From Salminus brasiliensis (taxonomy: Eukaryota > Chordata > Actinopteri > Characiformes > Bryconidae), in the NCBI RefSeq assembly GCF_030463535.1, contig NC_132881.1, forward strand, positions 39,801,973 through 39,865,972: DNA of 64,000 nt, in the 5' to 3' direction. Positions within the stretch are counted from its first letter, which is position 1, and each line of letters opens with the position of its first letter. The notes under the pieces are model-generated. The model saw only the letters and a list, made by a program, of their open reading frames with translations. It had not been told where the DNA came from and made no database searches. The position numbers and the translations under genes are program-made. Positions 15,618-37,256 of the stretch are shown piece after piece.

Positions 15618-17340
15618 CTGCATCAGATAAAAATAGAGGGAAAAGGGGGTTAGTTGTGAACAATATTTTCCATTAGACTGCACAATAAAAGTCATCAATC
15701 TCAAATGTGTTTCTTTGTGGAAATATTCATCATTAGCAGATAATTAACCCATTGAAGGAATGGTGTGCTGATTTATACAAGCTTCTTCAGTTTAGTGCTG
15801 AAGCTAGGAAGCTAATGTGGCTAAAAAGAATAGAATTTAATAGTCACCCATATCTTCTCCATGAATACATCCCACAAAGATTCTCCCAACCTGCTCAAAC
15901 CACTTCCAGATATTCACTAAGGCTGTGCAGACATGCTGATCTGGTTTAGGGCAGCCGTAAGTTTGTCTTACTGTAACCATGTACCTGAACACTGTTGTGC
16001 CGAATTCCAACTCTCTGTCAGGCATTTGAATGTTTAGTGCATTTTTCTATAGGTATGTCCAGTAGATTGAGACCAGGGCCAATGATATGCCAGGCATATT
16101 TTAATGAATCAGGTATGGGGTATTTTGCCACAAGGCACCATTAATGGACTTTATTGCCCAGCCGGCAGCAGTAAGGTAATTCTCAGAAGGTAAATAAAAG
16201 AGTTGAGTCAGACTGGATTATAAGATATTAAACACTATAAAACAGTCATTTTACGAAAAGTCTCGACTAAACTAAATCAATCAGTCCAGAAAATCTTATT
16301 GTAGACATGGATACTAAAAATAAAGGGATTTTACTGAGTACATTAATCAGCAGCTCATCTAATCTAAATTGTGGGGCTGGATTATTTACACAAACACAAA
16401 GATCAGATCAGTATCTGCTGAGACTCAGGATTAGGAGACTCAGATTCTCATTCTGTGCCCTAAACCTAAAGCCTGTGCAACATTAACAAAGACCTGGGTG
16501 AGGTTTGAGTGGGTTAAGAAAAGGGTATATTTATATTTAATATTCTTCTAGTATTTATAAGCAAAGTTATCCTTGTAGCTCCAGCACTAAACTGAAGAAG
16601 CAACTGAAGAAGTGGACAGAAAGCATGCCTTGACTGATGAACCTGGTCTTGGGTAAGAGGAAGATTGTGTAAAGGTGATTTTTGCCACACCATTCCTTTA
16701 GTGTCTGAAACCTGCCTGAGCACAAACCTAAATAAATGTATCGAACATGTGCAACCATGTGTTTCTTGTGTGTGTGGTTTTTATGTTGTTAAATTCAGTC
16801 TTATAATCACACTGACTTTAAAAAAAAAACAATGGAAACCTGTAATTTGATTGTAAATAAAAGCATGAAAATTGTATGTAATCAAAATAATAATAAAACA
16901 AACAGGTACTGTTAGATGTTTGCACCCAAGCAAAGTGATACAGCATATACAGAATATATTCTGTGGCACTTGTCCTGACTAAAATCAGGCATTTTCAGAC
17001 ATGCACTGGTTACCCATTAACTATAAAAGTTTAATATGTGATCTATGGCACAGTTCTCCTCACCTGGATGAGCGTCTGCTGGTTGTTCTGCCGTTTCCTC
17101 ACCGCTGGCTGGGGTTTTACCACAGTCCACACACCGTACTCTCTTCTCCCTCTCTTTCAGTTTACTCTCATAAAACTGCAGCCGTCTCATGAGCAACTCC
17201 ACCTCCTGTTTGGCGTGGCCCACTTCCTCCATGAAGCTGTCCTCCACCAGCTTGGTGATCTCAAACATTGCCGATTTGAGGATCGTTTCCATGACAATAG
17301 AGAGCTGGGACTGGAAGGTGACGATGAGAGCGTCTGACAT
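14308..17340 (-). CDS. Zinc-finger gene A (5 C2H2 fingers), two coding exons
   Basis: Coding exons 17064-17340 and 14308-15617 join in phase 1 (donor CATCCAG/GTGAGG, acceptor GATGCAG) into 528 aa. Residues 1-50 carry the module shared with genes B-D (MSDALIVTFQSQLSIVMETI, then EITKLVEDSFMEE), followed by a basic heptad-like helix and a CVDCGKT motif. The middle is acidic with SUMO-type VKLE, IKEE and IKAE sites. Five C2H2 fingers lie at about 387-523 with mostly non-consensus linkers (KGKKP, SGERP, TREKL). It is probably a nuclear sequence-specific DNA-binding regulator; targets cannot be inferred. The second Met is chosen over one 8 codons upstream because it aligns with the starts of B and C. 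An unseen middle exon is possible, since B and C have one. Confidence 0.88.
15618..17063 (-). other. Gene A intron
   Basis: AT-rich with no recognisable exon or mobile element. A short open frame at 15752-15949 has no splice support. Confidence 0.6.
17064..17340 (-). CDS. Gene A first coding exon: shared N-terminal module
   Basis: 92 codons plus one base. A favourable A at -3 precedes the ATG. The core TFQSQLSIVMETILKSAMFE and the EITKLVEDSFMEE segment match the exons at 26157-26439 and 33056-33335 almost residue for residue. A 5' acceptor (GTTCGCAG at about 17412) implies an upstream non-coding exon. Confidence 0.9.
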
Positions 17341-17412
17341 TGTCGCACAGTTGTTGAGCCGCACCTCTTCAGGAGAAACTGGATCCCGATTTCGTGGTTA
17401 ATTTGAGGAACC

Positions 17413-18480
17413 TGCGAACAACCGAAAACCAACCGTTCAGTATTTCATAACTGGAGCGAATGCTGATTTTTATCAGACAAGTGGGTTTACACACGCTCTC
17501 CCTCTAGTCGTATCACAGTCTAATAAAAACATCTGTAAGAATAAGGTGTGTGTTTTTTTATTATTATTATGGCAACCTACTGCATGATGCTAGCCAGCTA
17601 AGGGGGGGTGGGGGGTGGGGGGGTGAGAGGGATCCCATTTTAGGCTAACTGAACACATTATAACCCATTGAAGCATCAGTCAATAGTTTTCCTGTATATT
17701 CTGTGTATACTGTATAATTATTATCTATAGATTTGATCCATCCTGTCTTGTATCTTTGATTGTCTATTTGACCAGACAGTCATCACAGCATTTCACTGTC
17801 AGTTGTCCCATGGAGGAGTGTGTGTATGTGACAAATTTGTATTAATTTGATAAATAAAATCAGATATCATCTGCATTTCCGTCTTTAAGGTCTCACAGCA
17901 ACAAAAACAGCCTGTTTTCCACCAATTAAGTGATTAAAAAGACATTAAAAAATAATTATTTGATTTATTTTATTATTTTAATTATTGATACTTGCTACAA
18001 AGAAACACACAAGCAGTCAAAAATCAATCTTAGGACTGTAAATGTACTAGATAACACAGAAGTCCTATATAGGGGGAAATAAAAACAAGGTTAGAGAGGA
18101 GCGGGTGAGGGATGCTGCGGTCATGGTGTGGAGGTGGGCCACGCCTCGTGAGAACACCATCTAACCCCATCATCTGAACTCCACAGTCCTTTATGAGCCT
18201 CTGTGTCTGACTGGCCACATTTCTCTTACAGTTTATTATTTAGATCAGTGGTATATTCAAGTCATCCGTCGTGATTTTTTCCTTTTCTTTTCTTTAATGC
18301 ACAAAAATAAATCAAAGTGTCAAATATTAAAATAGCAAATTCATGAAAGGTGCAGGGACATGGGTCAGGTCCCTCTGCTTGGGTTCGTACACCGTCCCGT
18401 CCTGGTTTCTGAGGACTGGTGGTTGAGTAAAGAGTTAATTTAGCTCTGTAAATCAACAGTGCAGAAGAAGAAATAACACA
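17413..18480. other. Upstream of gene A; G-rich tract, otherwise empty
   Basis: Likely a 5' intron of gene A. It contains a G-run block at 17602-17631 (separate entry) and AT-rich sequence. A leftward 62-aa open frame at 18030-18218 cannot be tied to a gene. Confidence 0.4.
17602..17631 (+). other. G-quadruplex-type G-run block
   Basis: Four G runs of 7, 6, 7 and 3 separated by T, T and TGAGA. The tract fits the usual four-run G-quadruplex pattern. It lies about 260 bp upstream of the gene A start codon, with G on the strand opposite to the gene's RNA. Confidence 0.6.
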
Positions 18481-18489
18481 AAGTGAACC

Positions 18490-18830
18490 CAATAGGCGCG
18501 CTGGTTAATTTCCTCTGGGTAAGCCCACAACTCACCCCTTAATGTCCTACTCATATAATACAGCCTTCGTGTACTTAACACGGCTATACAGACCCGTCCT
18601 GCTGCCCGCAGAACTGGATTAATCCCGTTAAATCACAAACACTGCCGTTAGCCAACTAACCTAGTTAGCAGCTGAGCTAGCTCGCTCCCTTCACCCATTC
18701 GCTCCTATTCTCCTGCAGCTGCACGTGTTATTACCCACTGGGAGACCTGAGCACCGTACTCGACACAATTTACCACCAGATAGTAAAATAACAGCTTAGT
18801 CGCTCATCAAACTCACTATGTACATCCAGA
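18490..18830 (-). promoter_or_regulatory. Possible promoter / first exon region of gene A
   Basis: CpG-containing, less AT-rich than its surroundings, with CAGCTGAGCTAGCTCGCTCC and an E-box-like CACGTG near 18722. The need for an upstream non-coding exon (acceptor at about 17412) makes this the best candidate. No TATA box or start site can be fixed. Confidence 0.25.
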
Positions 18831-19139
18831 GATGCTCCAGCACACAGATGGAAATCTGCTGGTCTGATGGATCTTTTTGTTATTGCTGTGGTTCAGCGCT
18901 ATTCCTGACTGACCCCTGCTGGCGTGGAGGGTCATCGAGCTTCTCTTGTTCTTACACACAAAAGCCTCACGGTTTTTTTCAGGGTTTTTCTGTGTTTATT
19001 CCCTTCTGATCTCTCCTTAAAACCTTTTAGTATTTTTAATAGTATTTTTTAATAAACCACAAAACATACTTGAATACTTCAGGTCTCACACCCCTAAAGT
19101 GAGCTCCTCATGGGTGCTTTAGCAATGCAATGATTTAAT

Positions 19140-19295
19140 GACACTAATGTTAATAGTGTAATAACTAGTGTAATAACTATAATAATAGTAATAATAGTAG
19201 TAATAGTAATAATAGTGTAATAACTAGTGTAATAACTATAATAATAGTAATAATAGTAGTAATAGTAATAATAGTGTAATAACTAGTGTTAATAG
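19140..19295. repeat. Tandem repeat of TAATAGTAATAA / GTGTAATAACTA
   Basis: A unit of about 60-70 bp built from GTGTAATAACTAGTGTAATA and AATAATAGTAATAATAGTAG is present in about two and a half copies with almost no change. It is a recent simple-repeat expansion. Confidence 0.85.
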
Positions 19296-19431
19296 TTATT
19301 TACCTGGTAGGATTTCAATTTTCTGTGGTGGAGAACACCTTCTTACCTTCAAAAACCTCTAAATGGATCTATGTAGCATATTTTTGATTTTCACTGTGTT
19401 TATGCTGCTGTAACTTTTCCTCTGGGAATGA

Positions 19432-19671
19432 CAAAGGTAAAGGTGTCGTTTGTCACTGTACAGCGAAATGTGCCCTCCGCATTTAACCCATCTGGTAGTG
19501 AACACACACACACACACACACACACAGAGCAGTGGGCAGCCAACTCCAGCGCCTGGGGAGCAGAGAAGGTAAAGGTGCCCAACAGTGGCAGCTTTCCAAG
19601 CCCGGGAATCGAACCCACAACCCTGTTATCGATATCCCGGCGCTCTAACCGCTGAGCCACCACTGCCCCTT
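19432..19671 (-). mobile_element. tRNA-derived SINE, leftward copy
   Basis: Reverse-oriented copy of the 7539 family. On the + strand the B box reads GGGAATCGAACCCAC at about 19603 and the head ends CGCTGAGCCACCACTGCCCC. An internal CA microsatellite lies at 19501-19526. The overlapping 75- and 87-aa open frames are not genes. Confidence 0.85.
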
Positions 19672-19852
19672 TGAGGGCCCCCAGCTATCTAAAAAGAGTA
19701 CTGTGAGTTATGAGCAAAAGAATGGATATACTGGATGTACTAAGACGTTCCACTGTGGTTCTGCAGGAAACCTAGTACTTGAGATTTTGTTTGCTATGTA
19801 ATTCAGGTCATTTTTCTGTACAGTTGAATTGGGAGTGTAAGCACACTCATCA

Positions 19853-20142
19853 TTTACATTTACATTTAAGGCATTTAGCAGACGCTCTTATCCAGAGCAA
19901 CTTACAAAAGCGCTTTGCTATTTACCCAAGAAAAACCTCAGCTAGTTAGAATAGACTAATAGTTCAAAGATACCTCTAAGCTTTAGACATTACTAAGCAC
20001 AAGTCAATAAGGTGACCATAGTACTCTGCTATTCGTAAAGCATACTACAGCTGCTGAAGCACACTCTGGGATTTGAACCTACAACCTTCAGAGCACAACA
20101 CCAGTGCCTTAACCCACTAGGCCACCCAGGGCTCCATCATGG
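19853..20142 (-). mobile_element. tRNA-derived SINE, near full length
   Basis: The + strand runs from the tail (ATTTAGCAGACGCTCTTATC, CAGAGCAACTTACAAAAGCG) to the reversed tRNA head (GGGATTTGAACCTACAACC; then CCACTAGGCCACCCAGGGC). Read leftward, this gives A-box-like GGTGGCCTAGTGGGTTAAGG and B-box GGTTCAAATCC. Confidence 0.75.
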
Positions 20143-20189
20143 ATGTGGATCTCATCATGGCAATTCAGTGATTTCTTTGTCTTCTGAAA

Positions 20190-20780
20190 TCAACACAAGG
20201 TCAGAAACATACACACATCACTCCTAATATTTGGTTCGATATCCCTTAGGAAGTTGTTCCCTCACCAGATGCTGCTGATAGCCATTAACCTGCATTTGAC
20301 CATCTTCTTAGCAGAATTGGTAACATTCAGTTAAATGTGTTTGTGTTTGGGATCACTTTCCTTTTTCCTGGAACAACCAATTGTGCCCAACGTCCCACCG
20401 TCTAGCTGATGGTTTGAGGTTATGAAGAATACTAAGGTAGCCCATCCCTCTTCATTATTCCATACACTTGACATCGGAGGACCCTTGAAGGCAGATTAAT
20501 TAGATCATTTTCCAAATGAAACTACTCTTAACATGCCATCTGTGGCTTTCATTCCTAAGAGCTTGAGTTCACTTGAACAGATTGAAAGTGGACACTTGAG
20601 TAAAAGTACTAGTTCTACTGGCCACAGAGTAATGCTACCACCACCACGCTTAACAGATGATACAGTGTTCTTAGTGCTGAATTTATTACCTTTACTTGAG
20701 GCCAAATAAATCAATCTTTGCCTCATCTGACCATAAAACCTTCCTACATAAGTCCATGTGGTAAACTACAGACCTGAACT
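20190..20780 (-). pseudogene. Decayed Tc1/mariner transposase
   Basis: Leftward translation with interruptions resembles the Tc1 catalytic region: SDEAKIDLFGLK, then a stop, then TKNTVSSVKRGGGSITLW, close to the family's W-S-D-E and GGGS-I-LW landmarks. Several stops and a lost frame show the copy is dead. Repeat-like sequence continues to about 21350 but I cannot assign it to the same element. Confidence 0.7.
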
Positions 20781-21700
20781 GACGGTGTCATGTTTTGGAG
20801 CAGTGGCATATTTATTGCACAGCAGTCCAAGGTGATGTAAAACTCGCTTGACATGAGCGTCCAGTTCATGTCAAGCCTGTCCACTGGTGTTTTTTTGGGT
20901 TGTTCCTGACCATTCAAACCAATTTCCTCTCAGCTGAGGGTGACAGATTGAGTGTTCTTACAGACCTCCACAAAGTGGCTATGGCAAGCTGTGCTTAAGT
21001 ACAGTTTTAACTGATCATCTTGGAATTGGCAGATTTGTACATTTCAGAAGTGACATTCCTGACTTGTGTAAAATCTACAATCATCCCTCTCAGATCTCTA
21101 CTGAGCTCGCTGGACTTTTCTTATTGTACTGTGTGTTGGTCAATCCAGTGAGTGCTGTCAGACATACCCTTTCAGCACCCCTGAATTAGCAATCTGTGTA
21201 TGTATATTTCTGACCTGTATGTAGGAGGTGTTGATTTCAGACCCCTCCACCTCCAATAAATATAAAACACATCCAAGGATTTTTTGTTTTTCTCTATTAC
21301 AAATGTATGTTGTAACTTGTTCTGTCCCTCTAAAAACAATTAAGAAATCACTGATAGCCCAATATTGCTGTGACATTTATGTCCATAATGGGTGTATGTA
21401 AACCTCAACTATACAACTGTAGATTCAGTCTCCATGGAGTAATTATTTCCTATGAAAGTGAAAAGCTGTGTCCTGCATTGCTGAATTTAAAGGTGTCAGG
21501 TTCCTGCTCCCAGAGAGCCATGTGCCAAACACACTTAATTAAGGTAAGTAATTAGGGTATGTAATAGGGTGTAATTATGTTCAATCCAGCTGAACTACTG
21601 TACCTTTAATTCCCCTGAGCATAAATGAATGGAAATTCAAGACATGTTTTTTGTTATCTGTCCACTATGACTTAAAACTAACGATCATGCATGACATGTA
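20781..21700. other. Intergenic, possibly more transposon sequence
   Basis: No gene seen. The 20781-21180 part has the look of non-coding transposon sequence adjoining the Tc1 remnant. Nothing definite. Confidence 0.3.
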
Positions 21701-21710
21701 TAAAAGGTCC

Positions 21711-21716
21711 TTTATT
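21711..21716 (-). terminator. Polyadenylation signal of zinc-finger gene B
   Basis: AATAAA on the leftward strand, 240 bases past the stop of gene B. It is the first canonical signal in a plausible position. Confidence 0.5.
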
Positions 21717-21955
21717 CATAAACCATAACGATGCCATTTCATGGCATTCAACTATGGAAAAAAAAAAAAAAAAAAGACTACCGCTATGCAAAGTCTTTAA
21801 GCACAGTATTGCTTAAATAGCCATAAAAGTCATACACTCATATACAAAACAACAAATGTACACAAATACAATAGTCTACAAACACCATGAACACAGAACA
21901 GCTCTTAACTCTCTCTCTCTCTCTCTCTCACAGAGCTAGACCATAACTCTAACTC

Positions 21956-23071
21956 TCACAGGTTGGCAGAGTGAATTCTCTGGTGTCTTTTCAGGTTGCA
22001 TTTCTGAGTAAACCTTTTGCCACAGGCCATGCAGATGTAGGGTCTCTCGCCTGTGTGGACCCTGCGATGTGCCTTCAGGTTGCTGAGCTTGGTGAAGCTG
22101 CGGCCACACAGACTGCAGCAGAACTGTCTTTCTCCTGTGTGGATCTGTTGATGGGCTCTCAGGTGACACAGGTGGGAGAAGCCTTTACCGCACTGGCTGC
22201 AGTTGTGTGGTGTCCTGACCACATGATGTCCAATATGACCACTAGTCCTAACGCTGAGCGTCTGCATGAGATTTCGTCCAGACTGCAAAGCGCCGATGCT
22301 TCTCTCCTCACCGTAGGCTCTCTGGAAGTGCTGAAGTGCCTGAGAGGGTTTAGGCAGAGAGGCTGGACTCTTGTGGACTGGCTGTCCTCTGGCTACATTC
22401 ACGGTACCAGAGTTGGAGGCCAGCACGCTGGCATGTTCTACCAGTTTGGTGGGTTTTTTTCCTGGTGTCCTGAGTTGCTGCGTGACCTGAGAAGCAGGGC
22501 TGCTGACCTTACCACATGGCCCAGGATAGACTACGCTTCCTTCCACTGGAGGTCTTGTGGGAGGAGGATCTACGTGCGGGGGTTCGTCCCGTGCTGGATT
22601 AGCTCTGCTGGGGGCAGTGGCGGTCCCAGACCTCACCCGGTCAACCTCTTCCCATTCTGGTGGTAGCACCACAACAACCTCCTGTTTGATGGCCACAGAG
22701 TTTGGACTCTTTGCCAGCTGTTTCACAGTGGGATACTCAGCAGATGGCACAGCTGCAGGCCCTGGCTGTGGGAGAGGTGACTGCACAGCATGATCTGCTT
22801 TAGAGTTCGGCCTTTTTGAATGTGATACGTTTTTCACTGACTCCTGAATACCAGGACTGCCAGACTTGGTGCCAGGGGGTTTGTCCCTCTGAGGGATCCT
22901 ATGATCAGGCAGTGATGCATGGAGGCCTGAGGTCTCGCCAACATTATGGCTCTGTGGCTCTCTGTGATCCGCAGTGTGACTGTGTACTGTTGAGTAGATC
23001 TGCAGGTCTGTATGTTCTGTGACCTCCTCTTTCATGGCTCCTCCCACTTTAGCTTCATCGACTTCAACAAT
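21956..23071 (-). CDS. Gene B last exon: spacer and three fingers
   Basis: Phase 0 entry reads IVEVDEAKVGGAMKEEV. The fingers open with CSQC, CSLC and CMAC; each has HxxxH spacing. The 231-aa rightward open frame covering 21971-22666 is an antisense shadow of this exon. Confidence 0.9.
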   Translation of the reverse strand: MVEVDEAKVGGAMKEEVTEHTDLQIYSTVHSHTADHREPQSHNVGETSGLHASLPDHRIPQRDKPPGTKSGSPGIQESVKNVSHSKRPNSKADHAVQSPLPQPGPAAVPSAEYPTVKQLAKSPNSVAIKQEVVVVLPPEWEEVDRVRSGTATAPSRANPARDEPPHVDPPPTRPPVEGSVVYPGPCGKVSSPASQVTQQLRTPGKKPTKLVEHASVLASNSGTVNVARGQPVHKSPASLPKPSQALQHFQRAYGEERSIGALQSGRNLMQTLSVRTSGHIGHHVVRTPHNCSQCGKGFSHLCHLRAHQQIHTGERQFCCSLCGRSFTKLSNLKAHRRVHTGERPYICMACGKRFTQKCNLKRHQRIHSANL

Positions 23072-26000
23072 CTGAAAAAAGAGGTTTGATAAGGTCAGTG
23101 AAAAAAGTAGGTTTCAAAGTATTTTGCTCAGATCAGATTTGGCAGTTGACATTCATAACCGTGACCTGCATCTGTCTGTAATGTGACCGAATCTGTCCTT
23201 GAAATTTTCTTTACAACAAACAGCAGAACAACATCACTAAGCACAAATTGTATTCAAGTCACATATTCTTGGTGCAGCACACAGGTTTTCAGATGATGTT
23301 CAGTCCTAAAATAATACATCATGCTGCTCACAAAACCTGACCAGTAGAAAGCATTGTACTGTAAAAGCAGGAGGCTGTCTAAGTGGAGGACAGATGTGTT
23401 AGTGACACTTTAAGCTTTTACTGAGCCGTTTCCACAGATGAACTCCAGAGAATGTCCAGGGAATCAGAACCGGACATTATCTGAGGTTATACTTTCACAC
23501 ATGTAGCATACAGCCTGAGATTTACTAGGAAATGTAGCGCATGCTGAAGGCACGGCAGGAAGCAAAAAGTATGCCGCTGAAGTAGCAGTGTTTTGTTTAC
23601 AGCACAGCCAAGATGGTGAACAAAGCTACCCACTCATCCATAATGATCTGACCGTTCACACGTCACACGCCCACAAACTTGATACAGAATATATAGGACT
23701 ATATATGAAAGAGTCTTAAATCTGAGATTTGATTTGAAAAGATTGGATTTGAGTAGAGGGGGGAAAAAGCCCTGTAGTCATAGATACATAAAATACATAG
23801 ATGTTCTGATGTCCTGAAACACCTGTTAGGAGTGTAAGTGTCTCTCTAAATTAATTTACGATACTGTACAAAAATAATAATGTAAAACAAGTAACAATTC
23901 AGTACACTTTGTTTTAACAGTTTAGTAATAGTATCTAATATTATTCAGTTCAACCCAGACAGATTAAATATCTGATAATCTGATCAAAAATGATGTTTAG
24001 TTCAATTTAATATGTACTGACGTGCCCCCTGTTTTTATTTAGTCTGATTTTATTTATTTAGTTATTTAATTAGTCTTTAGTTCTAAACAGAAATGTCTTC
24101 ATTTTGTCTGAGTATTGTTAAGTTAATTTTCTAAACAGTGTGGTTTACAACTGTAAATCTTTCTTGACAAGCTGCAAGTACAATACAGCTCTTCAAAAAA
24201 GTAACAACCTGTAATTATGATAATTAGTGCTGTTGTTAACTCGTTAATGTACATGATTAATCTGCAAACGTAACCTTTTTTTTTTTAGCACAAATTAATC
24301 ATCTTACCAAATTTGGCCCCAGCTTCCTGACGTAGGTCACTCTCTTTACACAGCCTATTGACGCATTAGCGGTTTTCTTTAGCAATGTAAACACAGCGTC
24401 GCTACTGTTGAGCTCAGAGGGAGCTCTCGCACACCCTCACACACTCCTACTCTTCTCTCTGCTCGCTTATTCCAGTCCAATGACTGATCCATCCATTGAT
24501 CTCTTAAAAGGCTGTTGAAGCATTTCCTCCATTAAAGCGTCTGTCTCGAGCTTCGCCGCGTTCGAGGCTAAACTTCTCAAAACTACAATGAGATATTATA
24601 TATATAAAAAAAACAAAAAACTAAAGCTAAATTAATCTAGACCTCACCTAGTTGAGCATAGCACATATTAATTTGTTCTCATGCTCAAAAACTCAAGGAC
24701 GTGCTAGCTAGCATTTTAACTTCACAATTAATTACAGAATATTGCAATATTGTACTGAAAGGATGAGACTGCTGTCACTCAAAAGTAATGGAAGCTTATA
24801 CCCTCCAATCTGCATCTGCATATGCTAAATCATCACACCCTTGCCTCAATCTTCATTGAGTTTTTTACTTAAATAGACTTGCTCATGTGGTTTATGACAC
24901 TATAATGCTTGCATTATAGATACAAAAGTGTGTAACAGCAGCAGCCATGTCTAGCGTTGAAGATAATGGCAAGTCAAAGTGTTAGAAACCACACAAGCAA
25001 GTCGATTTAATCATATTTGAGATTACTTACAGGTTTCGCATTTAATAAGCATTTGAATATGTCTTCTGCATTTGCTGTTGACACCAGGCATGTCTTGGCT
25101 AACTTCAAGAGACAGTGTTGACTGTGTGCTTCACCCACAGTAAAAAAAAAAAAACGGCTTACCTTAAGTTCAGCGTCTGGGATTGTTGAGGATGCCTCTT
25201 GGCCTGGAGTTACAGTTCCCTTCGCACTGCTTCTGCCACTGTCAGAGGAGCCTTCATGCTTCATGGTAACACCAACCAACTCCACACCTTTTAAATGATG
25301 GAATATTTTACAATATATCAATTAATGCAATGTTTAACGAATATGAGCAGCATATACGATATATACAATATACACCCAGCTGTTTGTTGACACCTGTATT
25401 AACAGAGAGCGGCCCATCTTTTCTGCAGGACCAGCCTCTACTCTTCTGGGAAGGCTTTACACTGGACCAATGACTGATCCATCCATTGATCTCTTAAAAG
25501 GCTGTTGAAGCATTTCCTCCATTAAAGCGTCTGTCTCGAGCTTCGCCGCGTTCGAGGCTAAACTTCTCAAAACTACAATGAGATATTATATATATAAAAA
25601 AAAACAAAAAACAAAAGCTAAATTAATCTAGACCTCACCTAGTTGAGCATAGCACATATTAATTTGTTCTCATGCTCAAAAACTCAAGGACGTGCTAGCT
25701 AGCATTTTAACTTCACAATTAATTACAGAATATTGTTGCGATTAACGCCATTCCATTATTTTCATCGATTGACTCTTCTGGGTAGGCTTTACACTGGACC
25801 TGGAGTTTCCTGAAGTATCCTTTATTTTCACTATTGCCAACATAACTGTTCAACTACTCAGCTTGTCAACAAGCGATTTCTGAGTTGAAACTGGTGTGTT
25901 AGAGGAATACGCTCAAATGTGTAAGACAGGGCTACTCTAGGAGGAAGGGTGGCAAAATTAGTGAGGTCAGGTACGGACGCTGGAAGATCTGGATCACAAA

Positions 26001-26439
26001 CTGCTCTCCAAATCATCTGCCCTACATGCTTGGCATCAGGCACAGTGATCTTAGGCTCATGGACAGCTGCTCTAGAGTATGCATGCACTAAAACTGCACA
26101 CAAATGTATGTCTGGATCCTTCTAGGCATACAGGGAGGTCTGAGGGTCCTGCTTACCAGTCTGCGGCCTTGAATCTCTCCCATCCGTTTCCTTCTTGGAG
26201 AATCCAGTTTTGCCACAATCCACACACTTCACCCTTTTGACTCTTTCCCGCTCGCCGAGTTTGCTTTCCAGGATTTGCAGTCTTCGCCTCAGAACGTCTG
26301 CTTCTCGTTTGCCACGACCAAGCTCCTCCAAGAAGCTGCCCTCCACCAGCCTGGTGATCTCACATACAGCTGACCTCAGGATGGTCTCCATGACCCCAGA
26401 GAGCTGGGTCTGGAAGGTGAGGAGGAGAGTATCTGCCAT
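21956..26439 (-). CDS. Zinc-finger gene B (3 C2H2 fingers), three coding exons
   Basis: Exons 26157-26439, 25163-25287 and 21956-23071 join in phases 1 and 0 into 507 aa. All junctions are good GT-AG: ACTG/GTAAGC to TTTAAAAG; CTTAAG/GTAAGC to TTTTTTCAG. Residues 1-55 carry the shared module (MADTLLLTFQTQLSGVMETI, EITRLVEGSFLEE), then a basic helix and KCVDCGKT. The spacer has SUMO-type sites (MKEEV, IKQEV) and a Pro-rich stretch. Three consensus fingers at about 425-503 with TGERQ and TGERP linkers end only four residues before the stop. Three fingers is few for this class. It is likely a DNA-binding regulator with a short recognition site. Confidence 0.88.
23072..25162 (-). other. Gene B intron 2, with a repeat copy
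   Basis: AT-rich, no exon seen. It contains repeat sequence from about 24226, including the 268-bp block 24477-24744 that is repeated at 25467-25735. Confidence 0.6.
24477..24744 (+). repeat. First copy of a 268-bp near-identical duplication
   Basis: From CCAATGACTGATCCATCC to TTACAGAATATTG this block repeats at 25467-25735 with only about three differences. It lies in intron 2 of gene B. It includes CpG-rich CTCGAGCTTCGCCGCGTTCG. A TTAACTCGTTAATG stretch upstream (about 24237) resembles termini of fish hAT-like repeats. Confidence 0.9.
25163..25287 (-). CDS. Gene B middle coding exon
   Basis: 125 nt, phase 1 to phase 0. It begins GVELVGVTMKHEGSSDSG and ends DAELK before a strong GTAAGC donor. 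It corresponds in position and phase to exon 31921-32057 of gene C (which also begins GV-E), supporting both models. Confidence 0.75.
25380..26110 (+). mobile_element. Fish DNA-transposon-like repeat, interrupted
   Basis: Matches the family at 440 and 9890: CTACTCTTCTGGGAAGGC, GTGAGGTCAGGTACGGACG, CACAGTGATCTTAGGCTCAT and GACAGCTGCTCTAGAGT are phrases of that repeat. The copy is split at 25469-25771 by the second 268-bp block. The element sits in intron 1 of gene B. Confidence 0.6.
25467..25735 (+). repeat. Second copy of the 268-bp duplication
   Basis: Inserted in the older repeat. The block and about 36 further bases (to 25771) are flanked by 29-bp direct repeats beginning ACTCTTCTGG at 25440-25468 and 25772-25800 with one mismatch. 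Such long flanks are unusual for a transposon target-site duplication. Confidence 0.85.
26157..26439 (-). CDS. Gene B first coding exon: shared N-terminal module
   Basis: 94 codons plus one base. The start is set at the Met aligned with genes A and C; the open frame runs 19 codons further upstream without homology. The motif order is TFQTQLSGVMET, EITRLVEGSFLEE, basic helix, CVDCGKT, then the phase 1 donor. Confidence 0.9.
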
Positions 26440-27128: not shown

Positions 27129-27226
27129 CTGTCAAATGAAAAACATTTATCTCTATTTATCTCTATCTATTTTTGCTGGGTTTGAACCCTGCTGCTAATC
27201 TGTACACTGTGTAAATACATCTAGAT

Positions 27227-27391
27227 AAATGGACCAATAGAAATTCTCCAAATTACTAATAATATAAACTCTTATTTTACATTAACTTCCATTTTAAAAT
27301 ATGGACAATTTTTTACCTACATGAATGAGATACATGAAAGTCACCATTTTGGAGATACATGTTTTTTATTGGACAGTGATGATATATCTGA

Positions 27392-27436
<45 letters not shown>

Positions 27437-27925: not shown

Positions 27926-27929
27926 TGTG

Positions 27930-30175
27930 GGAGTATGCCTTAGACATAAAACTTTATATTACATTATATTATAAAATTAAATCTTTCAAATTGCCGACCC
28001 ATTACAACAGAAACACGTCCATCTGAAAGGTCAACTTTTTTTTATTGGCATCCAGTAAAAGCATCAGTTTTCATCCACAATTTCATCACATTTCAAATAA
28101 AAGAAAATCTTTTACATATAAAACACACACTTAAGACAGGACTGACTAGGGTGAAATGAACTCACACACTATTAAATAAGATAATCTCATTTAGCAAAAC
28201 AAAGCAGTTACAGAGGCACTGCAGCAAAGAACAGAAAATACCCGACTACACACTTTCTGAAACCAGGATGCAAAGTAACCTGAAACAACATGAGCAAAAT
28301 GAGCAAAACTAAGAAATGAAGGTTTTTACTGGTAAACGCGACTATATGAAGTTAAGAAAATTGGAAATGGCGAGTCTTGGTGTGTAAAGGTGGCAAATCA
28401 AAGCAGAATACAATAGTTGATCACTAATATAATAATATTGTAATTGTGTTCATATGCAGCCTTTTTTGGGCTGAATATATCCTTAATAATATCCTTAGTC
28501 TATGGGAACAAATTATAAGCTCTCTGTAAATAGATTTTGTAACAGCAGCCGTTTTTTAATACTATGGTCCTTTTTCACCCATGTGAGTTATCCACTGATC
28601 TTACAGTGACTTTAAATGGAAATTATGAATTTTTCTGCATTTTTAAGTCACTTACATTTCAGAATTCCTGCATAAATAGTTGAGATGACAAATGTATTCA
28701 GGTGGTCTGATGTAAAATTACTGTATTTAAAATGATAGTGATAGGAACCAGGGGTCTAAAAATGTACTCTATCCATCTTTACTATCCAGTATCACCACTA
28801 ATTTTACACATGCCTTCTGAGTTTTTATATGTAATATTAATAATGGTAAAATAGTGGTAAATCTTAAAATATAAGTTTTATCTGGGGTGTATTTTTGGCT
28901 TATAACACCCTGCTCATACCTCTCCTCCATTAACACATTTTAATACATTTAACAAAAATACATTTAAGGCCAGATCCTAAACCAACCACAAAACAGTGTC
29001 TCAGGCATTCGGCTTTAGATGTCTGGTTTCTATATCTACTGTCTAGCATGGTGCATTTCACACCAAACCATTCTGAACATGAATGAACAATTAAATTAAG
29101 AAAAAAATGATTTTCTCTTTATTCCAAAAGGGGTAGAAGAGGGTTTTATGGGAAAGAACATGGTTATAAAGGCAGATGACTTTTGTTGAGTTTGATCAAC
29201 TGGAGAGATTTCTTCTAATTTGATCTCCCTTCAAATGAAGCCCTGGGTGTATAGTATATACTGATAATTCAGTGTATTTGTGTTGAATAGAGCACTAAGG
29301 CTGTGCTTTATTTTGTAGTTAGCGGCATGCTACTATGACATATTTGGCAATCCAAGTTTAAGCTAGATTTACAAAGGCAAGAATGAAGGGAATTTAAAAT
29401 AAATATCACCTCCATCACATCCTGTAGTAAATAAATATGTTGAACCCCTACACTTCTTGTTCTGTCTACATTTTTCTCATTTACTTTACTGAATCCTCTG
29501 AATTAAGTCAAAATATGCACATTGCTACATGTAAGCTAATGCTACTGTGCACTGAATTGACATCATTAGACTGCAGCAAGCTTTGCCAGTCTGGTAGTTG
29601 GATTGTATTAGCAAGTTTAGCTTGAGAAGAAGTTGTTTATAGCACTGGTTGTTACCAGCTTGGTCACACTGATAGACCAGCTAAACCAACTCAAATGAAG
29701 CCATATGTTGTGCTGGTCAAGAGCTAAGCTGCTCAACCAGCTTGTTTAACAGCACAAGGTCTGGTTTCACCTGGATGGTAACGTGGGCTATGATGCTGAA
29801 ACACGCCAGAGCTTTCCCTTCTTAGCTTGCTTAGGCTACACTTTTCAACATGACCTGACTGAAAGTGGTTTTCACCTCTTTTGTGGTCATTCTTAAAGAA
29901 GGATGACAAACTAACGTGATATGACCGCCTTTCTAACTGATGCTCAGCAGCATTAGCTTGCATGTAGCGATATTAGTATTACGACACTCAAATGATCTCA
30001 GCATCCAGAGGATCCAGTTAAGTACAGGAGACAAAAATGCACACAGAACATAACATATAGAGTTCATTTTCAATGAAACTTGCTCTCGGAGTGCCGAATA
30101 TAGGCCTAACATGGCACCGGCTGCAAAATGACAGCATGGCTTCAGTGGTCTAGTAGTGTATTGACAACTGTGGTT
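27930..30175. other. Gene C 3' flank / 3' UTR, no other gene
   Basis: No exon found. A leftward AATAAA near 28040 could end a long gene C 3' UTR, but an earlier end is equally possible. It contains the second unit B (28778-28912). Confidence 0.35.
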
Positions 30176-31302
30176 CTAGTGATTGTTCAGGTCAGATCCA
30201 TGTTTGCGCTGGTGTGATCTGAGATGGTCGAGGCGTTTAAAGCTGAGTCCACACACCCTGCAGCAGTACGGCCTCTCTCCGGTGTGCGTCCGCTGGTGGA
30301 CTTTTAAGATGTCGGCCCGGGTGAAGCTTTTGTCGCACATGCTGCACTGGTGCGGTTTCTCCTGTGTGTGAATGCGGCGGTGCAACTTGAGGTTCCACAG
30401 GCGGCTGAACTTGTTCCCGCAGAGCGCGCAGCTGTAGGGCTTGTCTCCGGCCTGGCTGCACCGGTGCCTCCGCAGGTCGCTGAAAGACGAGTAGCCTTTC
30501 CCGCAGTGACTGCACAGGTGCAGTCCGTCCCTCTGGTGGATGCGTTGGTGGACTTTCAGGTTGCAGGCTTGGGTGAACTTCTTCCCACACTGGTTGCAGA
30601 CATAGCCAGGTGACGTGTTGGCTCTGTGAGTGAGCATGTGGGTCTTTAAAGACACCTGGTCTGGAAAACTGATCATACACTGAGAACAAGTGTGAGGTGT
30701 TTTGTCTCTCTCTACAGCCATTTCCATAGATTCACCGTGGTTCAGGTCTACTGGGTGGCTAAACGCATCTCCGCTGTAAAAGCAATTACTACTGTCACTA
30801 ACTGCATCTCTGCTGAACAAGGAATGTGCCCGATGTCCTGAGTCTCCAATAAGTCCACCTGGAACCTGAGGAAGAGCACTTATGTCCTGCAAATATCCCT
30901 CTTCATTAATAAGCAAACAGTTCAGATCACCTGCGTCCGGTGTGTTATGTAAAGAGGACGACCCTTTGTTTCCTCTCTTATTTCTAACGCGTCTTCCACT
31001 TTCTGCAGATGTACCCAGATCAGTTGGCAAAGAACCGGACAGTGCCCCGAATCCCAAAACCTCGCCACTTCTCTGTGTGGACTCTGTTAGTCCGTTCAGT
31101 TCTCCTATATCCAGCTCTTGATTTCCATAGTTTCCCAAGTCCTCCATGTTGTAGCGAGTTCTATATTGCAGAGCCTGGATATTATCTGGTTCAGGGACAG
31201 GGTTAGTGGCTTGATCTAAGCCTGAGCTCCAGTCATCCTGAATCTGCTGCAACTCCTGCTCACTGTAGGTCTTACTATGAGCGGAGTTGTCAGAACCTTC
31301 TG
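30176..31302 (-). CDS. Gene C last exon: spacer and six fingers
   Basis: The acceptor is a tandem ACAGCAG, so the exon can begin at 31302 or three bases later (31299), adding or dropping one Ala without frame change. Antisense and alternate-frame open stretches of 62-150 aa over 30183-31206 are shadows of this exon. Confidence 0.88.
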
Positions 31303-33335
31303 CTGTTGAAAAAACACACAAGAAATAAAGAATGTGTGTAAAGAAAGCAGCATAGTTTGTAAATAATGCTGATTTAAAATGATTCACTTTCAGTTGTGAA
31401 ATGTGTTATAAAGCTGAACTGCTTAGAAAAGTAACACACTGCCACAAAGATAAGTCATATTTAGCTGAAGTTTTAGATCCAAATGCTCTACTTACAACTG
31501 CATGTGCATTAAACAAATAACAGTTCTGAACTTTCAGACATTCATTAACTCATACCTTCAGAGGTCAGTCTCCACCCATCCTGTGGCTCAGTGCCAGCAT
31601 GAACAGCTTCTGCTTTAAGCATGCAGTCCAGCTTTCCTTCCTCTTGAGCTGCATTCTGCAAATAGCACATACAACCACAACCACCACATAACACTGCTTA
31701 AAAAAAACTGCACAACAAAATGTGTTGACACTTCATAGACATTCTCTACAACACTGGATAGACATCAAGATTTATAACTAATCTGCTTTTCACACCTAAA
31801 TCTGAGTACCAGCAGCAAACTACAACTACGAAACACAGAAATGAACTGCTGTGAATTTCTGTCAAAAGCCAGCAGCTCGTTTATGTTTGGTCTGAACAGA
31901 TAATTACATGCACTGCCCACCTCTGGAGGTTTCATTTGATTGGATACACCCTCAGATTCCACAATTCCAGAAAGTTCATCCTTCTTCTCAACTCCACAGC
32001 TCTTCCAATTCTCCTCCACTTCTCTCTCCTTTTTAAGATGTTGAGCATTTTCCACACCTATTGGATGATCAAAATAAATCAGATATCAAAAGAAATGCAC
32101 AGCTGCATAAGCTTGAACGGATCTAGGGATGCACAATATCTGCCCAGTTTCATTTCTTTTACTCGCACATTGTGTACATGATGAAGTGCAACATTAACAC
32201 TGCAACATGTTGGATCATTGAATTCCTGTATTTTTTAATATCACAATATGTATCGTACAAAAACACACCACTGCAATGTCAGTTGTTTCCTATAACATGC
32301 AGCTCTAAATGGATCCCAGTATATCCCTGTATGTCAAAGTCAATCTATGTGTATTACACTTTGAGAAAATGGCAACTTAACAGGAAAAGAAACTCTCTTA
32401 ACGTTCATAGGAAACCAATGTTAAAATACTTAAGTAATTATAGTAATTTTGGAGCATTTCTATTGGTCCATTATTCATGAAATTTTGGCACAACGTGAAA
32501 GACAGATGGAAGATTTAATTTCAGTCAAAAGTGACAAACAAAAAGGGGATTCTGGGATTTTCTGTACATTTCGTAATATTTTATTTTGTTCTCTAATCTT
32601 ACCCTGCTGAGAAAATAAACAGTCTGCCAGCTTATACTTCGTTAGCGTTTCACAGTTTAACTGGTCTACCAGCATGACCAACCCATCCACTGTAGTCAAC
32701 GAGTATTATAGAGCCGGCAATAAATCTAATCGAAGAGCATGACCAGTCTGACCACACTGATCCACCAGTATGACAAGCTTGACCAAACTTAGCCATGCAG
32801 ATAGACAAGCTAGTCATCCATCAAACTCAAATAAAAACTCTATGCCGGTCAGCTTAACCAGCTCTCCACCTTAAACCAGCTTTACAACCTCCCAAGGACC
32901 AACTTAGACCATCTGAAACCAGCTACCAGCAGGCTGATCTGATCTTGAGCTGGATTTCTCAGCAGGGATAGTCTGATCCTTTGTGTATATATATGTTTAA
33001 GACACTAAAGAACCCCATCTGTCTAGATCTGATCATCTCAACGTTTACAACTCACCTGTTTGGGTGTGTGAGGCTGTCTTGCTCTTTCCCTCGTCAGACA
33101 GCCTGGCATTGCCACAGTCTGCACACCTGAGCCTTCTCCCCTCTTGTTGGTCTTTGCGCTTCGTCTCGGACCACTGAAGTCTCTTCTTCAGAGATTCAAT
33201 CTGCTCTCTGCTTCGAGACACTTCCTCCAGAAAACTGTCCTCCACCAGCCTGGTGATCTCAAAAATAGCAGCTTTAAAAACAGTCTCCATGACGCCGGAG
33301 AGCTGGGTCTGAAACGTGGGGATGATTTCAGACAT
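30176..33335 (-). CDS. Zinc-finger gene C (6 C2H2 fingers), four coding exons
   Basis: Exons 33056-33335, 31921-32057, 31556-31655 and 30176-31302 join in phases 1, 0, 1 into 547 aa. Residues 1-50 are the shared module (MSEIIPTFQTQLSGVMETVF, EITRLVEDSFLEE) followed by a basic helix and RCADCGN. Exons 2-3 encode a Lys/Glu-rich spacer (LKAEA SUMO-type site). Fingers at about 376-540: CSQC, CNQC, CSHC, CALC, CSMC, CRVC. The third ends H-R-C-S-Q, so the last zinc-binding His is replaced by Gln and that finger is probably weakened. Head to head with gene D, 3.66 kb between start codons. Probable nuclear DNA-binding regulator. Confidence 0.87.
31556..31655 (-). CDS. Gene C third coding exon
   Basis: 100 nt, phase 0 to 1. 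It begins NAAQEEGKLDCMLKAEAV and ends GWRLTSE. Junctions: CTATTTGCAG acceptor and GAAG/GTATGAG donor. The acidic segment with one LKAE SUMO-type site is similar in character to the spacers of A and B. Confidence 0.75.
31921..32057 (-). CDS. Gene C second coding exon
   Basis: 137 nt, phase 1 to 0, beginning GVENAQHLKKEREVEENWKS and ending MKPPE before a GTGGGC donor. It is positionally equivalent to the gene B exon at 25163-25287. Confidence 0.7.
33056..33335 (-). CDS. Gene C first coding exon: shared N-terminal module
   Basis: 93 codons plus one base. The initiator Met opens the frame directly. The donor (ACAAACAG/GTGAGT) is strong. Just upstream (33345-33425) the 5' leader is a C/T-rich CTTCTGCTTC-type repeat on the coding strand. 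Confidence 0.92.
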
Positions 33336-33429
33336 TTTGAGCGTTGAATGGGGTGAAGCAGAAGAAGCAGAGGAGCAGGTGAAGCAGAGGAAGCAGAGGA
33401 GCAGAGGAAGCAGCAGCAGCTAGCTGATA

Positions 33430-34300
33430 GCTATGATCTAGAGCCCCCCTGAGCGTGGGACCACTTTTGTGTCCGTCAACCGCTAGATAGCATGAGCGCA
33501 CGGTTAGCTGGCTATGGTTCTTAAAATATAAATAAATGTATTATTGTGGCTTTCAGTTGTTGGTAAAGCCGTGAACCCTTTGTCTGAACGTGGTAAGGCT
33601 AATCTGCGTTAGGCTGCGTTGTCTTAGCTAGCTCAACTCAAATAACAGGCAGGCACTCGGTAGCTAGCCAGGTAGCTAACCAGCGAAGCTAACGTCCACA
33701 ATACTTCATTATTCCCGGGTTTCTCCCAAAATATAACCTTTAAAACCCAGAAATAATGAACACCTATACTTAATAAAGCAGATAACTTAGCTAGAGTACG
33801 AAACGTCTGCGGCAGTGTGGAGAGAAGAGTGAAAGTTCGTCCTAATCCAGGCTGTGCTCCTCTTTGTGATGGGGAACTAAAATAATGTTACACCGAAGCG
33901 GAGACGGCCGGGCGTGTTCACACGGTCCAGTGACCTTTAGGCCACAAAGGCCGTAAATGTGTTCCTTACTAATGAACCTCATCAGTTACAAAAAAAGACC
34001 AATTTACTGATCAAAAAGCATAAACAATAAACCCTAATGTTTACTGATATGGGTCACACACAGCTCAGAGGTACCATTGTCACACATGCTTTACTCAAGG
34101 GTGAAGATTTTGTGAGACAAAGGGGTGAAGGGGGGGATTGGGAGTGAAGGGGGGGATTGGGGGTAGCAAAGGTAATAGACAATAGCTAAACAGCATCTGA
34201 TTAGGATATTAGGTGAGAAAGGGATGTTATGGGTAGATTTACTGTATGATAGTGCTTTATGTGGCAACCTCAACTATAAAAATAAAAACTAACCAACGGC
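33430..34300 (-). promoter_or_regulatory. Probable promoter region of gene C
   Basis: CpG-bearing segments (CGGAGACGGCCGGGCGTGTT at about 33899) and a G-rich block at 34122-34163 (AGGGGTGAAGGGGGGG, repeated) lie upstream of gene C. Start site not determinable. No coding sequence. Confidence 0.3.
34122..34163 (+). other. G-quadruplex-type G-run block
   Basis: Six G runs: GGGG, GGGGGGG, GGG, GGGGGGG and GGGGG with short loops, built from two copies of GTGAAGGGGGGGATTGGG. About 790 bp upstream of the gene C start, G on the strand opposite the gene's RNA, as at 17602 for gene A. Confidence 0.6.
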
Positions 34301-34303
34301 ATT

Positions 34304-34411
34304 CGTCTGATTATTCGTCTGATTTTTCGTCTGATTTTTCGTCTGATTATCCGTCTGATTTTTTGTCTGATTTTTCGTCTGATTATCTGTCTGATTATTC
34401 GTCTAATTATT
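34304..34411. repeat. 12-bp minisatellite TCGTCTGATTWT
   Basis: Nine or so head-to-tail units of TCGTCTGATTAT / TCGTCTGATTTT with single-base variation, in the gene C-gene D divergent interval. Confidence 0.9.
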
Positions 34412-34749
34412 ATCTGTTGTGAAAAGGCCTACAGATATCTGTTACACTAAAAGGCTCATTTCTCATGTTCAGCGGAAGCGGGCATTTGTCTGGCCACATG
34501 TCTCTGGATCTGAAAAAAAAAAGCCTCTTAGGCTGTTGTGACGGGCAGCGTAATGGTCAAGCGTTAATGGTAATAACATTAGCTATGGTTGATAGTAATA
34601 ATAATGATAACAATGGTAGAGGTTCATTGATAAAGCACCTTTCTCAAACTCAAGCCAACAGTAACAAGTACAACAGACAGCAAACAAAGCACACACTGAC
34701 ACACACACACACACACACACAATTCACAGCCAGTGAGGACAAAACTTCC

Positions 34750-35940
34750 TCAGCAAAAATAGGGGTGAGTGTGAATAGGGGAACATATGCTAGAACAGTG
34801 TGAATGGGGAGAACGGTTGAGCACCGTCTTCAAATCTTGACCTTGACCTTGTTTCCAGTCCTGGATTTTGTGTTTGCTGGAACTGATTGGCCACTTAGTG
34901 TCACGCCTCACAAAGATTACAAAGCCCAGGAGTGGAAACTAGATTCAAGGTCCAGATTTGAAGACCTGGGTTCTAGAATGTTCTTCTCATTCACACTGTT
35001 CTAGAATGTTCTCCCCAAATCCATGATGTTCTAGAATGTTCTTCTCATTCACACTGTTCTTCTCATTCACACTGTTCTAAAATGTTCTCCCCAAATCCAT
35101 GATGTTCTAGAATGTTCTTCTCATTCACACTGTTCTTCTCATTCACACTGTTCTAAAATGTTCTCCCCAAATCCATGATGTTCTAGAATGGTCCTCCCAT
35201 TCACACTGTTCTTCTCATTCACACTGTTCTAAAATGTTCTCCCCAAATCCATGATGTTCTAGAATGGTCCTCCCATTCACACTGTTCTAGGATGTTCTCC
35301 CCAAATCCATGATGTTCGAGAATGGTCCTCCCATTCACACTGTTCTAGAATGTTCTTCTCATTCACACTGTTCTAGAATGTTCTCCCCAAATCCATGATG
35401 TTCTAGAATGTTCTTCTCATTCACACTATTCTAGAACCTCCAGAACACTGTGAGTGAGGGTAAACATTCTAGAACAGTAAAATGGGAGAAACAATAATAG
35501 GGGAACTAAAAAACGTGAATTGGGGGAAATGTGCGTTGATTGGGGGAACATTCTAGGACAATGTGAATGGGAGGAACATTCTAGAACCCAGATCTTCAAA
35601 TCTGGACCATGATCTTGTTTTCAGTCCTGGATTTTGTGTTTGCTGGAAGTTTATGTCAAGTAACTGATTAACATTTGTTAATTAACACCCAGGAGTGGAG
35701 ACTGGATTCAAGGTCCAGATTTGAAGACCTGGGTTCTAGAATGTTCTTCTCATTCACGCTGTTCTAGAATGCTTCCTCCAGAACACTGTGGTGTGAGGGT
35801 AAACGGTCTAGAACCGTAAAAAGGGGGACATTTTTAAGATATTCTAGAACGCGGAGGACTGGGGGGAAACAAGAAGAGCAAAATAGGGGAACTCTGAAAA
35901 ACGTGAATTTGGGGAAATGTGGGAGAACGTGGTTAAAGTA
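34750..35940. repeat. TTCTAGAATGTTC minisatellite array with inverted segments
   Basis: Core unit: TTCTAGAATGTTCTCCCC, AAATCCATGATG, then TTCTAGAATG and a TTCTCATTCACACTG block, at 34971-35440. The flanks (34750-34815, 35440-35600, 35780-35940) carry the same unit in the opposite orientation. At least eight exact TTCnnGAAnnTTC (or reverse) matches occur, at 34971, 34999, 35029, 35105, 35343, 35371, 35401, 35574 and 35734. Two copies of an inverted-repeat element (34828-34983 and 35574-35746) are embedded. It is the same family as 1600-2480. Confidence 0.85.
35574..35746. mobile_element. Inverted-repeat element embedded in the array
   Basis: Left arm GAACATTCTAGAACCCAG with ATCTTCAAATCTGGACC, right arm GGTCCAGATTTGAAGACC with TGGGTTCTAGAATGTTC. 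The arms of about 37 bp are near-perfect reverse complements around about 100 bp containing GTCCTGGATTTTGTGTTTGC. A sister copy lies at 34828-34983 with a decayed left arm. Hairpin-forming, MITE-like. Confidence 0.65.
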
Positions 35941-36008
35941 CCAAAAGTTCTGTCACTGGTATTCCATCAGTAAAAACACACTAATGTAGCTTGTTTTTCC
36001 CCCAAACA

Positions 36009-36041
<33 letters not shown>

Positions 36042-36720
36042 TTGTGTGGATGAGGGGGGTGGGGTTTAGCTTGTAGGGTGTCCAACTACACAGTCAGTGA
36101 AATTGCTTATTCGTGATCATTGCAGTCATTGTTGAAGTGCCTGTGAAACGTATCTGTCATTGTAGGAGAAAGTGAATCTGCTTAGTAATATTCTTCTTGC
36201 TGTAAATATATATATATATATTTTTAAATATTTTTTACTTTACAATTTATATCACCTACATTTATTTATATATGGGATATTATTTACAGTGTTGTACTGT
36301 ACTGATGGTAGCCTTTTCCAGAACGTGCCTTTTCCAACATGCCTTATATGACTGGGATTGGGACATTCCCTGAAGGTGCAGGGCAACATCCACAGCTGTG
36401 CCTTTACAGATCCAGGCGGGCTTGTTAGTCCTGCACAGTGAAGCTCAGTGTTTCCCAGCTCCAGTCCAGTCCACCTGCATGGCACGCATGGTCTTCTCCC
36501 TGCTTTCCTGCTCCAGCACACTTTTTGATTGAGCTCAAGAAGGACTTGCTCCTGAGGCAGGGAGCTCTACGCTGTAGAGCAGGTGCACTTCAGGACTGGA
36601 GGTGGTGGAACCCTACAGCAGATCCCTCCAGTATGTTTGGTTCGGAGGCGAGCTGTGAATTATGAATGATTAAATGCATGGATGGACTGCATGATGTTGC
36701 ATGATGAAATAAAGCTTTTA
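35941..36720. other. Non-coding upstream region of gene D
   Basis: TG microsatellite at about 36010-36041, then unique sequence without a gene. Short open frames at 36252-36665 lack support. Confidence 0.4.
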
Positions 36721-36994
36721 AATAAAGAAACATGGTAAACATGGTGCGGAAGTGCTGGATGTGTAGCGTTCGCCGTGAGGAGCTCGCGCAGATGTGCGCA
36801 GCTTCGCCGATCTGCACGCCATCGTGCTGCGACGGCGGCGTGCGGAGGTGATTTGTAGATCTGCGTTAACCCAAGCGCGTCCGTGCTGTCGCTCAGTGAT
36901 ACGTCACTGTAAACTTCGTCCTGTCTGCGAAAGAGAAACTAATCAAAACTCATCAAGTTTGCTCAAGTCGCCCCTGATCGCACTGGGTGTCAGT
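36721..36994 (+). promoter_or_regulatory. CpG-rich 5' leader of gene D with a Cys-rich uORF
   Basis: CpG density rises sharply at 36760-36900 (GTGCTGCGACGGCGGCGTGC). An upstream open frame at 36732-36851 (39 aa, MVNMVRKCWMCSVRREELA at its start, seven Cys in total) precedes the main ATG at 36995, which has A at -3 and G at +4. If transcribed, the uORF could limit gene D translation. Confidence 0.4.
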
Positions 36995-37256
36995 ATGGAG
37001 GAGAACGGCAGGTTTCAGACCCAGTTCACAGCGGTGATGGAAAGCGTGCTGCAGGCGGCCGTGGGAGAGGCGACCAAGCTGTTCGAGCGCACTTTGCACC
37101 AACTGAAAGCCGAGCTGCTTCACTTGAGGCAGGAGAACGCGGACTTAAAGACCGGGCTTTTTGCTCGACAATTCAAGACAAGACACGCCGGGGATGGACC
37201 TCAAAGGGGTGACCCTTCACCAGGACCACCCAGATGTGATACTGGTGTACAGTGCG
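36995..37256 (+). CDS. Gene D first coding exon: diverged N-terminal module
   Basis: 87 codons plus one base to donor TGCG/GTAAGG. Alignment with A-C is clear over the FQTQ...VMES...A and KLFE positions, but the C-terminal helix differs and the terminal CxDCG motif survives only as CDTGVQCG. It is the earliest-diverging or fastest-changing copy. Confidence 0.85.

Follow-up and report, generated by a model that had tools for sequence, protein, structure and literature searches.

How do the zinc finger (ZNF) proteins of ray-finned fish act on chromatin? The question stands because ray-finned fish are described, in the accessible text of PMC11603059, as devoid of KRAB-ZNFs and TRIM28, and it is raised in a concrete form by a locus of Salminus brasiliensis (assembly GCF_030463535.1, contig NC_132881.1, positions 39,801,973 to 39,865,972). 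This stretch of 64,000 nucleotides, the whole of which is referred to here as the window and numbered from its first letter, harbors four neighboring Cys2His2 (C2H2) ZNF genes, designated A to D. The first coding exons of all four encode one homologous N-terminal module, which reaches no curated threshold in Pfam or NCBIfam and probably provides a helical surface for oligomerization and cofactor docking.

The module exons are located at 17064..17340 (gene A), 26157..26439 (gene B), and 33056..33335 (gene C) on the minus strand, and at 36995..37256 on the plus strand in gene D, which carries a divergent copy. From the ATG codons at 17340, 26439, 33335, and 36995, the coding sequence extends over 277 (92 codons and one base), 283, 280, and 262 bases to GT donors at 17063, 26156, 33055, and 37257, respectively. 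All four donors are in phase 1, as the preliminary description of this DNA had proposed, and a single G is carried across each splice. The interval assigned to the genes in that description, 17064..37256, is bounded by the final coding base of the A module exon and that of the D module exon, and leaves the finger exons of these two genes outside.

Homology of the modules was evaluated by searching a profile built from three of them against the 2117 stop-to-stop peptides of at least 20 amino acids in the window. The module left out of the profile is recovered at E 8.8e-33 (A), 4.6e-32 (B), 1e-28 (C), and 1.2e-6 (D), and the best non-module match across the four runs has an E value of 0.29, which bears out the earlier claim that the four genes share one module. 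A profile of all four sequences retrieves the four modules from the window peptides, with every further match at E 0.63 or worse, and the best of the shuffled peptides reaches E 3.4 against it. In single-sequence blastp, the best non-module match aligns 34 residues of a peptide at 58062-58226 on the minus strand with residues 39-72 of the B module at E 0.037; the four-sequence profile gives this peptide an E value of 3, and the match is probably due to chance. Pairwise identity is 61% over 94 columns for A and B, 53% over 79 for A and C, 46% over 90 for B and C, and 34% over 62 for C and D. The conserved N-terminal consensus reads FQTQLSxVMETxxxxAxxEITxLVExSFxEE. Gene D is a distant relative that keeps FQTQ..VME...A..E.T.L.E without the EITRLVEDSFLEE string, such that the homology of all four modules stands while the likeness of D is weaker than originally worded. 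Near the end of the helix described below, the A, B, and C modules have in common a C-x2-C-G stretch that resembles half a zinc finger; matches to this stretch in the PDB are insignificant at E 1.9 or worse.

Comparison with known domains relied on Pfam at E values up to 10, a range in which the HMMER filters drop most matches above ~0.1. KRAB (PF01352), SCAN, BTB, and DUF3669 are not among the matches of the four exons, in agreement with the earlier description, which could not place the module among the first three. Every Pfam match of the module exons lies under its curated cut-off, so that no Pfam domain with a known function, the result named beforehand as speaking against a new module, is matched at cut-off; the best match, at E 0.0035, is between the D exon and the coiled coil CCDC92 (17.6 bits versus a cut-off of 28.3). 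NCBIfam contains nothing near its cut-off for the module. Among the solved structures of the PDB, no match falls below E 0.42 by sequence or E 0.61 by profile, and the two best profile matches, at non-significant E values of 0.61 and 0.72, are coiled-coil peptides. Alignment by hhalign with a sequence taken as the KRAB domain of human ZNF10 yields E 0.86 over one column only. Collections of viral (IMG/VR) and prokaryotic (GTDB genome contigs) sequences contain 71 and 34 stretches with the pattern of the module, respectively, none of which was confirmed, and both are uninformative on its spread in fish. Many predicted teleost ZNF proteins may start with a similar segment, which serves as a lead only. 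In the literature, no recognizable description of the module by sequence or anatomy is present among the matches listed, the scope being text outside subscription papers, figures, and supplements; a text search with peptide strings from the window and strings attributed to fish ZNFs retrieved no paper, and the accessible portions of PMC10380595 and PMC9817673 have no yield for the module sequence.

The fingers are encoded downstream of each module exon, on the same strand, and in one open reading frame (ORF) per gene. PF00096 detects 5, 3, 6, and 7 stretches in genes A to D at E values of 1.4e-13 to 6.5e-33 across the four ORFs, which qualifies each as a C2H2 array, and a pattern scan counts 5, 3, 5, and 7 with one degenerate finger in C. 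In a six-frame reading of the window, genes A, B, and C lie in tandem on the minus strand, and gene D lies on the plus strand, divergent from C. The last exon of gene A (14308..15617, minus strand) consists of a linker with three psi-K-x-E sites, five fingers, and a stop codon; that of gene C (30176..31302, minus strand) of a linker and six fingers, five of them canonical by pattern; and that of gene D (41508..44692, plus strand) of a proline-rich linker of ~860 amino acids with 21-bp repeats, seven fingers, and a stop codon. The module exons join these exons directly and in frame at phase-1 acceptors, located at 15617 in A, at 31302 or 31299 in C, and at 41508 in D.

Gene B departs from this layout. 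Its last exon (21956..23071, minus strand) comprises a linker with two psi-K-x-E sites, three fingers, and a stop codon, and the best acceptor, at 23071, is in phase 0 and hence out of phase with the module exon. Because the phase-1 donor and the phase-0 acceptor do not match, a further coding exon is probable in this gene. The candidate at 25163..25287 on the minus strand, which is 125 nt long, passes from phase 1 to phase 0, and has a weak acceptor and a strong donor, is the best of three and surfaces only under loosened cut-offs; it would bring the module and finger exons into phase; alternatively, a weaker phase-1 acceptor within the finger ORF may be used. The earlier view that the fingers occupy one last exon is correct in that each gene has a single finger ORF, with the qualification just given for the splicing of gene B. 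Middle exons were rejected for the other genes: gene A has no candidate, and the two candidates in C and the one in D are low-scoring.

The intron of gene D contains, at 38257-39136, an interstitial telomere-like tract in which degenerate (TAACCC)n repeats extend over ~880 bp. The linker of D includes ~20 copies of the 21-bp repeat at 42343-42766, which are proline-rich in the frame of the gene, and a block starting SSGQPLQLAP that is seen by eye twice, from 43202 and from 43544. Isolated single matches to the C2H2 pattern occur outside the four genes at 5470 (+), 6343 (+), and 36741 (-) and are probably chance matches or finger relics.

The age of the array and the selection acting on it can be approached through substitution rates, estimated by the Nei-Gojobori method over the whole module exon for the pairs among A, B, and C, without D. 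The synonymous (dS) and nonsynonymous (dN) rates are 1.28 and 0.30 for A and B, 1.98 and 0.36 for A and C, and 1.59 and 0.40 for B and C, and the resulting dN/dS ratios are 0.24, 0.18, and 0.25, with the caveat that dS is saturated for two of the three pairs in about the last third of the exon. Because the ratios lie between 0.18 and 0.25, the module of these three genes is constrained by purifying selection, and the dS values of 1.3-2.0 identify A, B, and C as old duplicates. Among the four loci, the blastn matches (E up to 1e-3) consist of the A, B, and C module exons, some finger segments, and a single 37-bp inverted match between the upstream flank of B and the intron of C; the module DNA of D has no match to the other modules in the same search. 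The linkers cannot be aligned between genes, the best E value among eight inter-gene rows being 0.14. The fingers were compared using the 20 pattern-matched fingers, excluding the degenerate finger of C: on average, 0.36 of four contact residues are identical over 146 inter-gene pairs, and the closest pair, B finger 3 and C finger 2, agrees at 12 of 17 compared positions, including three of the four contacts. Taken together, the low dN/dS, the unalignable linkers, and the differing contacts indicate that the module was kept while linkers and targets changed.

Local duplication, as first proposed, is supported by the shared module, the exon phase, and the mostly tandem order. The parallel drawn with KRAB-ZNF clusters holds in part. 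Like the clusters of tetrapods, the locus has tandem ZNF genes and an effector exon apart from the finger exon, whereas no KRAB similarity was found in the module, the fingers are few, the duplicates are old, and no recent expansion is seen in the window; young clusters in particular are unlike this array with its old duplicates, unalignable linkers, and short finger arrays. The locus therefore looks like a small, old, slowly evolving tandem array rather than a young KRAB-type cluster of the sort expected in an arms race with transposons. Wells et al. (PMC10547256, accessible text) note the difficulty of squaring transposon targeting with maternal FiNZ genes that are old and conserved, and the argument is carried over here to the array of A to D.

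FiNZ genes, the cyprinid ZNFs described in the same source, are similar to genes A to D in that both are fish ZNFs in which one exon is devoted to an N-terminal module and the next encodes the fingers. FiNZ is reported as a glutamate-rich, cyprinid-only module of 28 amino acids with ~700 zebrafish copies and positive selection in four of seven tested clades (PMC10547256, accessible text). The module of the present array is predicted to form a continuous helix of ~64-71 residues, is found in four copies in the window, and is under purifying selection in A, B, and C. Judged by the published description of FiNZ, the two may be distinct: the conserved stretch and the predicted helix are both longer than 28 amino acids.

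The structure of the module was predicted with AlphaFold2 for C and D, the alignment consisting of the four module sequences only. The model of C is a single helix spanning residues 4-74 of 85, with a mean predicted local distance difference test (pLDDT) score of 84.2, rising to ~96-98 over residues 11-60, and a predicted template modeling (pTM) score of 0.50; that of D is a single helix spanning residues 2-65 of 87, with a mean pLDDT of 78.4 and a pTM of 0.45. Net charge is negative over the first 30 residues (A -3, B -2, C -3, D -1) and positive over the next 30 (A +2, B +4, C +3, D +3). The basic helix that had been placed after the module is thus present by charge, and in the models of C and D it is part of one continuous helix rather than a separate element. 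In the second half, the hydrophobicity of the a and d positions of the heptad is equalled by 5 (A), 84 (B), and 193 (C) of 2000 shuffles in one register shared by the three, a heptad signal that is clear in A and weaker in B and C. Long solitary helices that expose many hydrophobic residues usually require a partner.

By analogy with the DUF3669 domain of ZNF746, we infer that the module exon encodes a helical oligomerization and cofactor-docking unit carried by probable repressors, an explanation that is favored with modest confidence. It draws on the homology and phase-1 donors of the four modules, the constraint on the A, B, and C modules next to diverging linkers and finger contacts, the single predicted helix of C and D, the heptad-like second half of A, B, and C, the coiled-coil nature of the best PDB profile and Pfam matches, none of them significant or above cut-off, and the psi-K-x-E sites of A and B. 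DUF3669 (PF12417), found in the amniote proteins ZNF746, ZNF777, ZNF212, ZNF282, ZNF398, and ZNF783, is comparable as an N-terminal domain that precedes a C2H2 array in a small group of paralogues. In ZNF746 it was directly shown to oligomerize, it adds modest to weak repression, and a potential SUMO acceptor is present in the adjoining segment (PMC6923878, accessible text). The two domains differ in that human-type DUF3669 is amniote-only and accompanied by a variant KRAB, and its consensus of 95 amino acids exceeds the helix predicted here. Under the favored explanation, each gene would encode a three-part DNA-binding regulator, with the helical module at the N terminus on a separate exon, a linker that diverges quickly, and the C2H2 fingers at the C terminus, and all four would stem from an old local duplication. 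The charged C-terminal half of the module would form a coiled coil with its own copy or that of a paralogue, and the conserved hydrophobic N-terminal half would provide a bundle core or a corepressor surface. Homo- and heterodimers of the paralogues could bring different finger arrays together at a single target, and repression might be aided by the putative SUMO sites that the A and B linkers carry.

Several observations weigh against an oligomerization and docking role. The AlphaFold2 alignments are four sequences deep, and the pTM values are 0.45-0.50. The heptad in the second half of D is weak and in a different register (591 of 2000 shuffles reach it), and a heptad signal is absent from the first half of all four modules, with at least 1554 of 2000 shuffles equal. 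A simple heptad along the whole 60 residues was rejected, as it is equalled by 440 to 2000 of 2000 shuffles, and so was amphipathicity by hydrophobic moment, for which all eight halves are within the range of shuffles (581-4652 of 5000 reach it). Ahead of the fingers, psi-K-x-E sites are lacking in genes C and D. The analogy itself is uneven, given that the DUF3669 of ZNF777, one of the two tested, does not self-associate according to the accessible text of PMC6923878.

An unlikely alternative identifies the module with the actinopterygian KRAB-like domain described by Carotti and colleagues, which would recruit TRIM33 and, through it, silence transposable elements with the help of NuRD and heterochromatin factors. 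That domain is likewise N-terminal, followed by fingers, and present in ray-finned fish, and its co-immunoprecipitation with TRIM33 is described as 'consistent with a possible interaction' (PMC11603059 and PMC9101882, accessible text). It may be the closest published name for the module, compared by description only; the accessible text of the same two papers gives no sequence, and the comparison proceeds by residue numbers. Of the residues named, E33 has the same number in A and B and L37 in B, the base of the numbering being uncertain, but D42 fits none of the modules and the spacing E33-L37-D42 (E-x3-L-x4-D) is found in none of the four. The absence of KRAB from the Pfam matches and the empty alignment with the ZNF10 sequence also speak against this identity, as do the short arrays and old duplication, which are unlike a transposon arms race. 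The module is moreover predicted to be one straight helix, unlike KRAB, which consists of two short helices.

Quite unlikely is the possibility that the module acts as a transactivation or mixed scaffold element and that the genes are ordinary developmental activators in a small, old array. The strong constraint, the shortness of the arrays, and the age of the genes suit conserved regulators better than transposon silencers, and the linker of D is 14% proline, a type of composition often seen in activators; however, no activation domain is among the Pfam and NCBIfam matches reported for the module, and the SUMO-type sites in the linkers of A and B are of a kind that is usually repressive. That one module exon was copied by exon shuffling upstream of unrelated finger genes, rather than whole genes being duplicated, is very unlikely: although clear homology is limited, fingers aside, to the module exons, with unalignable linkers and inter-locus blastn matches confined to module exons, finger segments, and the 37-bp inverted match while the D module DNA is unmatched, three of the four genes are in tandem on one strand, each gene has one finger ORF, all donors are in phase 1, B finger 3 and C finger 2 are alike, and near-saturated dS alone would erase introns and linkers.

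Other features of the window lie apart from the module. Rfam detects two UnaL2 elements, the 3' ends of long interspersed nuclear elements, at 49786-49839 (+, 69.5 bits) and 19865-19918 (-, 62.1 bits). The latter is ~180 bp from a stop-to-stop ORF at 19400-19684 (-), the peptide of which resembles a remnant of a tRNA-derived short interspersed nuclear element; ARAGORN finds no tRNA genes in the window. A VWA7-like gene extends over ~47560-61101 (-), with a Pfam VWA7_N match at 60295-60699 (E 7.1e-16) and a hemicentin galactose-binding-like domain at 52421-52699 (E 1.4e-12) that probably belongs to the same gene. The VWA7-like gene and the UnaL2 ends are what one would very probably see in a teleost.

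The conserved exon, for which neither Pfam nor NCBIfam has a model, offers a handle on how fish ZNFs work: once modeled, the class becomes countable across fish, and a construct of ~80 residues would suffice for laboratory tests of partners and activity. The constrained module, set against changing fingers and linkers, suggests that the genes share an interaction and not a target. It can be proposed, tentatively and with some doubt, that the array represents a further fish ZNF family besides FiNZ, defined by an uncatalogued helical exon for dimerization and corepressor docking, in which old, slowly evolving paralogues heterodimerize and thereby combine their finger arrays. If this is true, ray-finned fish would have a combinatorial counterpart to the KRAB and SCAN ZNFs.

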